From Acetobacteraceae bacterium (GTDB taxonomy: Bacteria > Pseudomonadota > Alphaproteobacteria > Acetobacterales > Acetobacteraceae): a DNA stretch of 41,054 bases. The stretch lies in contig CANJJS010000043.1 of the NCBI GenBank assembly GCA_947474705.1, forward strand, positions 1 to 41,054, read 5' to 3'. Both the position numbers and the translations under genes were made by a program. How positions within the stretch are numbered: the first letter of the stretch is position 1; each line of letters opens with the position of its first letter. Below the pieces are notes generated by a model, which was given only the letters and a program-made list of their open reading frames with translations, did no database searches and had not been told where the DNA came from. Positions 20,474 to 22,875 of this stretch are shown here, piece after piece.

Positions 20474-20631
20474 CCAGTGGACGCAACCTAGTCCAACCGC
20501 CCGATAAATGAAAGTTGGCGGGATGATGAAATCTTTCGATCAGAGGCATCGAACCGGCCGCGCCCATGGTTTCGTCCGCTGCCTCGCCCCGCTACTGTCC
20601 GCCCAGAGGAAACAGCCCAAACGAGGACATC

Positions 20632-22092
20632 ATGCGGACCGGCACCGATTACAAGGCGGCCCTGCGCGACGGACGCCGCGTCTGGGTCATGAACGACGGC
20701 GCGGTCGAGGACGTCGCCACCCACCCCGCTACCGCCGCCATGGTCGAAACCTACGGCGCCTGGTACGATCGCCACTTCGATCCCGCCTGGCGCGACCTGC
20801 TTTTGGCGGACGCCAACACACCAGTCTGGGCCGTGGACCCCCGCTCCGCCGCCGAGCTGCGGAAACTCGGGGCGAGCTTTTCCGCGACGACCTTCCTCAA
20901 CGCCGGCAACGTCACGCACACCCCGGCTTATGGGGCGTTGATCGCTCTGGGCCTGGAAACCGCCGTTCGGGCGTATGGGAAATTCCCGGACCAGATCGAA
21001 CACGCCGCCGCCTACCGCCAGGCGCTGCTCGCCTCCGGCCGGTTTCTGACGTTCTCCTCCGGTCAGGCGCCGGTCGGCTTCCGCATGCGAACCGATCCGG
21101 CCGAACGGAGCGCGCTGCGGGTCGTCCGGGAAACGCCGGAGGGCCTTTACCTCAGCGGCAAGGTCGGCATGTTCACCAGCCCGGCCTACGCGGAAGACGT
21201 CTATATCGGCGCCAATTCCGCGTGCGAGCACAACGGCCACCGCGTCACCTGCATCGTCCCGCTGAACGCGCCCGGCGTGACGATCCTCTGCCGCAAGATA
21301 TCGGCCCATGACAAAAACCCGTTCCTGTCGCCGCTGTCGCAACGCAACGACGAACTCGACGGCCAGATGTGGTTGGACAACGTGTTCGTGCCCAGGGACC
21401 GATTGTTCTTCCTGGACGCCAATGTCGATCCGATCGCGCGCTGGCTGTTCTGGCATCAGCTTTATTGCTGGGTGTCGAAGGGCGATTACGCGTTGGGCCT
21501 CGCTTTGGCCCTGACCGACGCGATGGGACTGACACAGGCCACGCCAACCGTGGACCTGCTGCTGGACATGATCGTGGACACGCAGACCGTCCGCACCTGC
21601 CTGACCGCCGCCGAACTCGACCCGAGCTTCACGCCGGAAGGATTTTGCTACCCCAACCACACCCATATCGCGGTCGGCAGCCTCGCGATGCTGAGCGCGC
21701 GGCAGAGGCTGACCGAAACGCTTCGGATTTTGCCGGGCTCGTCGATGATCGTGGCGCCCTCCGACACCGATCTCGCCGCCCCCACGATGGGACCGGGCTT
21801 CGAGGCCTCGTTCGGCGGCGGTGGTTACACGGCGGCGCAACGATCCGCGTTGTTGCAATTGGCGTGGGATCACGTGGGGTCCGCGCTGGACGCGCGCGAG
21901 TCGGTCTACGAACTCCATTCCAACGGCGGCGTCCCGATCTGGCGGGCGCGGCTGCGGCGGAGTTTTTCGCGGTACAACGAACTCGCCAACGCCGTACTGC
22001 GCGACATCGCGATTCCCGTGCCGGAAGTGGACCTGGGCGCCATCCCCGCGGCGCCGGTCGCGCCGCGGCGTCAGGTGGCGCCCACCCGTTGA
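20632..22092 (+). CDS. 4-hydroxyphenylacetate 3-monooxygenase family, oxygenase component (HpaB-like)
   Basis: 486 aa. The N-terminus MRTGTDYKAALRDGRRVWV and the AAMVETYGAWYDRHFD region match the HpaB/PvcC family of FADH2-dependent phenol hydroxylases, which share a fold with acyl-CoA dehydrogenases. Flavin- and substrate-region motifs include AHDKNPFLSPLSQRNDELDG and MWLDNVFVPRDRLFF. These enzymes hydroxylate phenolic rings with reduced flavin delivered by a separate reductase (HpaC type), which is not nearby. The substrate here is unknown, and a 4-hydroxybutyryl-CoA dehydratase-like or secondary-metabolite role cannot be excluded. The ATG at 20632 has ACGAGGA upstream; the longer frame from 20566 has none. 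It is divergent from rubrerythrin. Confidence 0.85.
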   Translation: MRTGTDYKAALRDGRRVWVMNDGAVEDVATHPATAAMVETYGAWYDRHFDPAWRDLLLADANTPVWAVDPRSAAELRKLGASFSATTFLNAGNVTHTPAYGALIALGLETAVRAYGKFPDQIEHAAAYRQALLASGRFLTFSSGQAPVGFRMRTDPAERSALRVVRETPEGLYLSGKVGMFTSPAYAEDVYIGANSACEHNGHRVTCIVPLNAPGVTILCRKISAHDKNPFLSPLSQRNDELDGQMWLDNVFVPRDRLFFLDANVDPIARWLFWHQLYCWVSKGDYALGLALALTDAMGLTQATPTVDLLLDMIVDTQTVRTCLTAAELDPSFTPEGFCYPNHTHIAVGSLAMLSARQRLTETLRILPGSSMIVAPSDTDLAAPTMGPGFEASFGGGGYTAAQRSALLQLAWDHVGSALDARESVYELHSNGGVPIWRARLRRSFSRYNELANAVLRDIAIPVPEVDLGAIPAAPVAPRRQVAPTR

Positions 22093-22215
22093 CGGTGTCG
22101 CCGAAGCCACCCGAGCCATGGGCGACCCCTCCGGCCCCGCCGCCGTCCGAATTCGACGACCAATTCCGCTGGTTCGCCCGCGACGTCATGCCAGCCTTCG
22201 CCGGATAAATTTGTC
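22093..22215. other. Intergenic stretch after the HpaB-like gene
   Basis: 123 bases without a gene that I can support. At 22186-22206 the sequence GTCATGCCAGCCTTCGCCGG resembles one arm of the short repeats that contain GTCATGCC...GGCATGAC in alphaproteobacterial genomes, but the second arm is missing. No clear terminator for the HpaB-like gene is visible. Confidence 0.4.
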
Positions 22216-22233
22216 CATTGATCCATATCAATG
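22216..22233 (+). promoter_or_regulatory. Perfect FNR/Anr/FixK-type binding site
   Basis: CATTGATCCATATCAATG is an exact inverted repeat of CATTGAT around CCAT. It contains the full FNR-family consensus TTGAT-N4-ATCAA with no mismatch. Its centre at 22224.5 puts a class II (-41.5) start at about 22266, with a weak -10 (CATGTT, 22254-22259). The nearest downstream unit on the plus strand is the candidate sRNA that ends at 22354. No minus-strand gene starts nearby. Confidence 0.75.
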
Positions 22234-22265
22234 CCCAAAGGCGGAGGGCGGGGCATGTTCCGGGT

Positions 22266-22354
22266 CGAGGGATGAGCGGGATTGCCTTGCTTGTCTTCTC
22301 TCTTGGACTCCTCCCCAAACTTGGCGGCACCCACACGGTGCCGCCGATTTTTTT
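22266..22354 (+). ncRNA. Candidate FNR-controlled small RNA with an anti-Shine-Dalgarno loop
   Basis: From the inferred start to the end of the T-run is about 89 bases with no credible reading frame. The stretch holds a pyrimidine-rich single strand (CTTGTCTTCTCTC, 22288-22300). Next comes a small hairpin, TTGG (22303-22306) pairing with CCAA (22315-22318), whose loop reads ACTCCTCC and is complementary to ribosome-binding sites. It ends in a textbook intrinsic terminator. CUCCU loops are the hallmark of alphaproteobacterial cuckoo/alpha-r14-type sRNAs. The 5' end is inferred from FNR geometry. The alternative is a leader that attenuates the gene at 22423. Confidence 0.5.
22323..22354 (+). 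terminator. Rho-independent terminator (sRNA 3' end)
   Basis: GGCGGCACC (22323-22331) pairs perfectly with GGTGCCGCC (22337-22345) around the loop CACAC, followed by GA and seven T (22348-22354). It is the best intrinsic terminator in the window. It is 231 bases past the HpaB-like stop and 69 bases before the next ATG, so it most naturally ends a separate short transcript. Confidence 0.85.
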
Positions 22355-22422
22355 CGGGCCGCCATTTACCGCGCGTTAACCGGACCGCCGTAGCCTCCCG
22401 CGTATTCGCGAGGGGCCCGGAC

Positions 22423-22875
22423 ATGGCCTTACCCAATCCCGAAACACGTTCGATCCAACCGCTGTTGCTCCTGTCCGGCGCGACACTGCTGACCATCGTG
22501 CTGGTCGCCACCGCGGTTGCGCGGGTGGCCGCCGGGCTCAGCCCGCGGGTTGGCGATATCGTTTCCTTCGACCCCCAGGCGCCCGCCGGGTTCGCCAGCG
22601 ATGCGCGCCTGGCCGTGACCCGTCCGGGTGGAGGGGAGTGCGACCTGGATGTCGGTTTGATGCGCATGACCGGCGGCAGTCTTGTGGTCGAACGCCGCGA
22701 TCCGCCGCCCACCCGTCTGTTTCATGTCCGCTGGGTTGGGCCGCATACCAGTGTTGGCGCGCGGAATTGCGGGATGGAGGCGAGTCTGTTGCTGCCAATT
22801 TCGGACCTTGTCGCGCTGGCCAGCGCGGCCGGCGGGTTCGGGACCGGGCATCGCGGATTTCTTGGGCTGCGATAA
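22423..22875 (+). CDS. Hypothetical membrane-anchored protein
   Basis: 150 aa. One N-terminal membrane segment (about residues 13-37, LLLLSGATLLTIVLVATAVA) is followed by a ~110-residue soluble domain, probably periplasmic. That domain has two Cys (around residues 72 and 116), which could form a disulfide. I do not recognise the family. The frame is open from 22282, but that would run through the terminator; the ATG at 22423 has GAGGGGCCCGGAC upstream. It follows the FNR-box/sRNA region, so expression may depend on read-through of the 22323 terminator or on its own promoter. Confidence 0.65.
   Translation: MALPNPETRSIQPLLLLSGATLLTIVLVATAVARVAAGLSPRVGDIVSFDPQAPAGFASDARLAVTRPGGGECDLDVGLMRMTGGSLVVERRDPPPTRLFHVRWVGPHTSVGARNCGMEASLLLPISDLVALASAAGGFGTGHRGFLGLR

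Follow-up and report, generated by a model that had tools for sequence, protein, structure and literature searches.

Positions 22216 to 22354 of the window, the 41,054-nt stretch of DNA analysed here as a whole, look on sequence evidence like a real gene for a regulatory RNA of about 90 bases. The product is most likely a trans-acting sRNA of ~89 nt, a paralogue of the alpha-r8 family (suhB/MmgR/SisA) that would be activated by FNR at low oxygen and would block Shine-Dalgarno (SD) sequences. The comparisons with relatives described below point to a genuine and well-conserved sRNA gene with a probable oxygen input and an altered seed. The unit and its surroundings are laid out as follows:

20566-22092: HpaB-like gene; the intergenic unit comes after it.
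22096..22208, + strand: probable C-terminal remnant of a luciferase-like gene, outside the sRNA unit.
22216..22233, + strand: FNR/FixK-type box CATTGAT-CCAT-ATCAATG, with the core TTGAT-N4-ATCAA at 22218-22231 and its centre at 22224.5.
22254..22259, + strand: -10-like hexamer CATGTT, 36 nt past the start of the box core.
22266..22354, + strand: predicted sRNA of ~89 nt, with an inferred start relative to which the box centre lies at -41.5.
22267..22300, + strand: 5' hairpin, variable in sequence, with pairing retained across copies.
22303..22318, + strand: TTGG/CCAA mini-hairpin with the loop ACTCCTCC, carrying the anti-Shine-Dalgarno (aSD) CUCCUCC at 22308-22314.
22321..22354, + strand: intrinsic terminator, an 11-pair stem at 22321-22347 followed by T7 to 22354.
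22423..22875, + strand: downstream gene of unassigned function, outside the sRNA unit.

The model R1, which was built with the window copy included, matched 22266-22355 at 90.3 bits. The predicted RNA is more stable than its own shuffles, with a fold z-score of -5.35, and three relatives gave values of -3.35 to -6.20.

Used as a query against the DNA of 59 genomes, 58 of them relatives and one the window's own, the intergenic region found matches in 20. Among the matches listed, most fell on the loop-plus-terminator part and several genomes had more than one match. The matches fall into two types, type A with CTTGGACTCCTCCCCAAACTTGG, which is the type of the window, and canonical alpha-r8 with CTTGGACGTTTCCTCCCTAAACTTGG. 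The type-A core was found in 18 of the 33 genomes of the window's genus, with 19 matches, two of which lie at contig ends in G023 and are probably one locus. Of 397 family genomes sampled, 11 had it, nine from the window's genus and two from a second genus with three copies; of 385 genomes sampled across the class, a single one did, namely the window's own. When the named genome collection was scanned for exact matches, 18 stretches came up, all from MAGs, of which 13 carry the name Acetobacteraceae, two Rhodospirillales, two Asaia bogorensis, and one Nitrosovibrio. The R1 model matched alpha-r8 paralogues in 248 of 299 genomes across the bacterial family, and scores of at least 76 bits were confined to the window's genus, the lowest copy of which reached 73.6. 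Since the type-A copies of the second genus scored 45.7-55.7, among the range of the paralogues, type was assigned by sequence motif and not by R1 score.

An exact FNR-family box had been reported in the initial annotation and is present at 22216-22233, whereas its description as a perfect 18-base palindrome does not hold, as the box consists of 7-base arms around an N4 (CCAT) that is not self-complementary. Boxes with at most one mismatch are expected 0.46 times in the window and were found twice, the second lying inside a globin gene. The 5.48 Mb genome holds 13 perfect boxes vs none for a backwards-pattern control; eight of the 13 are inside heuristically called frames, one of which, opposite an FNR gene, is implausible. 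Taken alone, the box is weak evidence. It is significant because it is conserved: among 22 type-A copies examined, 21 had enough upstream DNA to be assessed and all 21 carried it (13 exact, eight with one mismatch), whereas none of 3907 150-nt windows drawn at random from these loci had a comparably good box.

The spacing is equally constant. A hexamer starting with CA lies exactly 36 nt past the start of the box core in 21/21 copies, with T at position 6 of this -10-like hexamer in 19/21. The unit has the geometry of a class II promoter, with TTGAT-N4-ATCAA at -41.5 from the inferred start and the arrangement fixed in every assessable copy, as the initial annotation had proposed for the window. 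The position -41.5 is the classical activating position for FNR. A consensus scan found no sigma-70 type -35/-10 pair in the unit, as expected of an activator-dependent promoter. Other perfect boxes of the genome do not generally show the -10 geometry: when the 13 were read both ways, CA at +36 occurred in three of 26 cases, the window, L156 (CATGTT), and L164 (CAGCAC). At L156 (1501-1728; G000:C21 near 18528), another FNR-type promoter has its box and CATGTT at the spacing seen in the window, and a 49-codon ORF with one hydrophobic stretch begins there 78 nt past the box start, matching nothing in Pfam or NCBIfam. Upstream of canonical alpha-r8, a box with at most two mismatches within 130 nt was found in 0 of 70 copy records, which represent 67 loci mostly of the same bacterial family, with five loci from other families of the class.

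Candidate regulators are encoded in the window's own genome (G000), where three FNR-like proteins, L144 (C88), L145 (C119), and L146 (C114), share an N-terminal motif of the CxxC-x6-C type. Inspection by eye, confined to these three, showed a fourth, central cysteine, and in NCBIfam each of them matches FnrL best, with a score under the cut-off. The L144 gene is preceded by a perfect box, at a distance of 38 or ~165 nt depending on which of two possible starts is used. Another perfect box (L158; G000:C26:53423), which lacks CA at +36, starts 77 nt before hemA, encoding 5-aminolevulinate synthase (TIGR01821, over its cut-off). A close FNR (E < 1e-70) was detected in 16 of 18 genomes bearing the RNA vs 2 of 15 non-bearers (Fisher p 1.7e-5, kinship ignored), a co-occurrence that is confounded by clade. 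The close FNR of all 16 bearers has the N-terminal Cys motif and an ETxSR-type helix; of the two remaining bearers, G027 holds an FNR fragment only and G021 no close FNR. Twelve of the 16 carry one close FNR, G004, G008, and G026 carry two, and G000 carries three.

The same RNA may instead be switched on by a FixK-like protein without an Fe-S cluster, or by another CRP/FNR protein, with relayed oxygen, NO, or redox as the signal. This is possible, if clearly the less probable reading. FixK and FNR bind the same box, and FixK stays a rival activator because FixK-like proteins lacking the Cys motif are common in the genus. These proteins have an ETxSR/ETxCR-type helix, and the two that were compared with NCBIfam matched NF050806 FixK best, below its cut-off. 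They include the FNR-like L229 of G021, which is nearest FixK and without the Cys motif, in a genome that has both the RNA and an exact box. Against a FixK-like activator, it is the Cys-motif FNR that tracks the RNA in the counts given above, and the RNA is absent from 13 of 14 genomes without any close FNR match, both comparisons being confounded by clade. The start of transcription at low oxygen by an FNR-type regulator is inferred from the box, its spacing, and the co-occurrence with Cys-motif FNR.

An Rfam scan of the window returned no family at its cut-off. The best family was RF00519 (suhB/MmgR, alpha-r8), which the window matched at E 3.7e-4 and L008 at E 5e-6 in short searches, with scores of 27.7 bits for the window, 35.4 for L008 and L129, and 29.7 for L134, all below the gathering score of 41. 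At least nine type-A matches in at least eight genomes scored 32.1-36.2 bits (E 1.8e-5 to 1.8e-4 per genome), and the similarity to the RF00519 model in sequence and structure is significant. Relatives match RF00519 widely: at E 0.1 a match occurs in 51 of the 59 genomes, and in 43 it exceeds the cut-off. Weak matches of this kind prove little by themselves, because 7 of 14 named control genomes also match at E 0.1, one of them over the cut-off. Type A is tied to alpha-r8 by the CTTGGAC and AAACTTGG flanks that the two have in common and by the cmscan alignment, in which GUU is deleted from the conserved 10-mer GUUUCCUCCC, so that type A reads ACUCCUCCCC instead. The letters of the 10-mer were taken from canonical copies and the Rfam consensus, and its length from PMC12559287. 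Judged by its sequence, type A is a divergent alpha-r8 paralogue and not a member under Rfam's rule. With the GUU lost and an FNR-type box that the canonical copies lack, promoter and seed have both changed.

RF00519 matches are numerous in this bacterial family, the highest count at E 0.1 being 13 in G006, and are sometimes arranged in tandem (G009 C4, G011 C60, G007 C28). The sequences upstream of RF00519 loci L050-L079 and L085-L124 were sigma-70-like when judged by eye.

The kinship with cuckoo RNAs suggested in the initial annotation was rejected. CcsR1 (RF02791) scored 13.7-16.6 bits vs a cut-off of 65.3, the window itself reaching 16.6 (E 0.063). No family named alpha-r14 appears among the Rfam matches listed up to E 10, and Rfam may not hold one. 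The FnrS family is likewise missing from the Rfam matches up to E 10, in agreement with the earlier statement that the RNA is unrelated to FnrS in sequence.

The RNA comes directly after gltX (TIGR00464, with a score above the cut-off) in 15 of the 18 bearers, and gltX also precedes all three copies of the second genus. Twelve of the 15 non-bearers could be compared at this site, G012, G017, and G019 being outside both the check and the tree, and in all twelve neither box nor core follows gltX. The sequence available after gltX was only 232 nt in G027 and 306 nt in G011. The gltX tree comprises 33 rows, 30 of the 33 genus genomes and three rows of the second genus, and places the presence of the RNA on one change with a support of 100/100. 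The twelve non-bearers form one clade; the change is a gain or a loss of the RNA depending on where the tree is rooted. The initial annotation had looked to close relatives for retention of box and loop. About half of the genus lacks the RNA, but bearers keep both elements and the twelve non-bearers lack box and core jointly.

In G000, G004, and G027, which cluster on the gltX tree (support 84/85), the unit lies away from gltX and retains the box and the -10-like element. A luciferase-like gene is directly upstream of the RNA in G004 and G027, that of G027 matching PF00296 and that of G004 being its homologue; the intact gene beside the sRNA measures 379 aa at L047 (PF00296) and 398 aa at L037. 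The 36-residue luciferase-like remnant of the window had no Pfam match. This arrangement suggests a local deletion in the window lineage. HpaB, in G027, is the only one of the nearest upstream genes to recur. The oxygen-themed neighbourhood that the initial annotation had counted as support is incidental, the usual neighbour being gltX.

The usual neighbour raises the reading that the RNA is a gltX 3'-UTR element or terminator processed into an sRNA, next to which the box would be incidental. Its position directly after gltX in most bearers is what this reading would predict. The three genomes in which the unit left gltX speak against it, as they keep the box and the -10-like element, and so does the spacing from box to hexamer, which is fixed in 21/21 copies; we consider it very improbable.

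A comparably slim chance is given to the stretch being the leader of the gene at 22423-22875, with the terminator acting as an attenuator. That gene is on the same strand and had no Pfam or NCBIfam match over cut-off, and its homologues follow the RNA in L033, L041, L166, L168, and L167. Across the 18 named loci the core is always present, yet the first downstream gene is on the opposite strand in nine, by heuristic gene calls and with two of the nine genes more than 750 nt away. Homologues of the downstream gene were found in 12 of 33 loci searched, and near gltX they are commoner without the RNA (7 of 12 non-bearing genus loci) than with it (2 of 18 bearing genomes); all three second-genus loci have one.

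The claim of a free-standing, terminated sRNA gene is strengthened by its conservation in relatives and by compensatory changes in the 5' stem and terminator. In an alignment of 21 copies, which was fitted to the model structure, 7 of 17 pairs were altered on both sides, a number reached by 0 of 500 shuffles, and 98.6% of cells were paired, with 0 of 500 shuffles as high. Sliding the pair partners abolishes the signal. Of five covariation measures, the one counting further pair types was 11 vs 9.4 and was reached by 57 of 500 shuffles. Two of the four modelled pairs of the 5' hairpin changed on both sides, with 98.8% of its cells paired, and compensatory change occurred in five of the nine modelled terminator pairs. 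The T-rich intrinsic terminator noted earlier was recovered as the stem-loop and T7 tract given above; because chance alone would give a consensus scan 0.5 such sites per 341 bases, its case rests on conservation and covariation.

The TTGG/CCAA mini-hairpin with its anti-SD loop, also noted earlier, was recovered with a predicted pair probability of 0.80, and the aSD stretch of the window copy is predicted to be 0.95 unpaired. Across copies this stretch is predicted to be exposed in 20 of 21 (at least 0.87 unpaired), with only 0.51 in L168. The mini-hairpin is invariant within the window's genus, and therefore beyond a test by covariation, and the three second-genus copies have lost its outer pair. 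In the fitted model, the 5' stem and terminator are thus backed by covariation and the mini-hairpin is predicted only.

The unit had been described as free of reading frames, which is not entirely accurate, since a non-conserved ATG frame of 35 codons with a hydrophobic N-terminus runs from 22272 to 22379 across the terminator. That this open frame encodes a small protein behind an FNR promoter is the least credible reading, as the 21 copies agree neither in frame nor in start (by the distance from start to core, 9, 7, and 5 of them belong to the three frames) and the frame crosses a terminator stem whose changes are compensatory.

In the FNR-activated sRNA favoured here, an FNR-type regulator bound at -41.5 would start transcription at low oxygen. 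The predicted fold of the RNA begins with a variable 5' hairpin, continues with a weak mini-hairpin in which ACUCCUCC is exposed, and ends in a terminator whose tail is U-rich. The exposed CUCCUCC would pair with the SD sequences of mRNAs and block their translation; the target sequence expected for the type-A loop would be GGGGAGGAG(U), close to start codons. Among the start regions within the window, a duplex scan gave no convincing target. With the GUU of the 10-mer lost, the set of targets should differ from that of canonical alpha-r8. Hfq is probably involved, and both its use and the blocking of ribosome sites are inferred from the known behaviour of SisA and MmgR.

In Caulobacter, SisA represses its targets through the anti-SD 10-mer, and the SisA-D promoters have no motif in common (PMC12559287). 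The same paper describes multiple alpha-r8 siblings in the genomes of many genera and leaves open the choice between redundant and separate action. PMC7143759 presents MmgR as an Hfq-dependent RNA under the control of NtrC and AniA, for which no direct target is known. Type A resembles alpha-r8 (RF00519 of Sinorhizobium meliloti; SisA-D of Caulobacter crescentus) in the flanks noted above, found in canonical copies of the same family, in the CCUCCC anti-SD core, and in its three stem-loops, the last of which is a terminator with a U tract. It also agrees with the pattern of several siblings per genome with differing promoters, as described in PMC12559287 and PMC7143759. It differs in scoring below the Rfam cut-off, in lacking the GUU and ending in CCCC rather than CCCU, and in its FNR-type promoter, unlike the NtrC/AniA input reported for MmgR or the SisA-D promoters with their lack of a common motif.

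The FNR-linked sRNAs covered by the review PMC8139620 comprise the E. coli RNAs FnrS and NarS, PaiI, which is probably indirect, and PcrZ. The expected logic of type A would be that of Escherichia coli FnrS, the FNR-activated repression of genes unneeded without oxygen (PMC8139620), whereas type A has no detected sequence relation to it, carries an alpha-r8-type anti-SD loop, and belongs to another bacterial class. PcrZ of Rhodobacter sphaeroides is, like type A, an alphaproteobacterial RNA linked to low oxygen, and depends on PrrA and FnrL; its control by FnrL may be indirect according to that review, unlike type A with its box at -41.5. No FNR-driven alpha-r8 RNA was found among the open-licence papers listed in literature searches, as judged from the listings. 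The CUCCUCC-type loop motif is common to type A and to cuckoo/CcsR (RF02791) and alpha-r14 RNAs. Type A nevertheless differs from cuckoo/CcsR in its score far under the CcsR1 cut-off and in having gltX as the usual neighbour.

It is fairly probable that the widespread anti-SD family alpha-r8 was captured by FNR in this Acetobacteraceae lineage, with promoter and pairing motif rewritten, which would make type A an alphaproteobacterial counterpart of FnrS that re-targets the blocking of ribosome sites to low oxygen. With a single sibling and a single change on the tree, type A offers a clean natural experiment in which an oxygen-linked promoter goes together with an altered seed. It opens to direct testing the idea of sibling sRNAs that diverge through swaps of input and seed.
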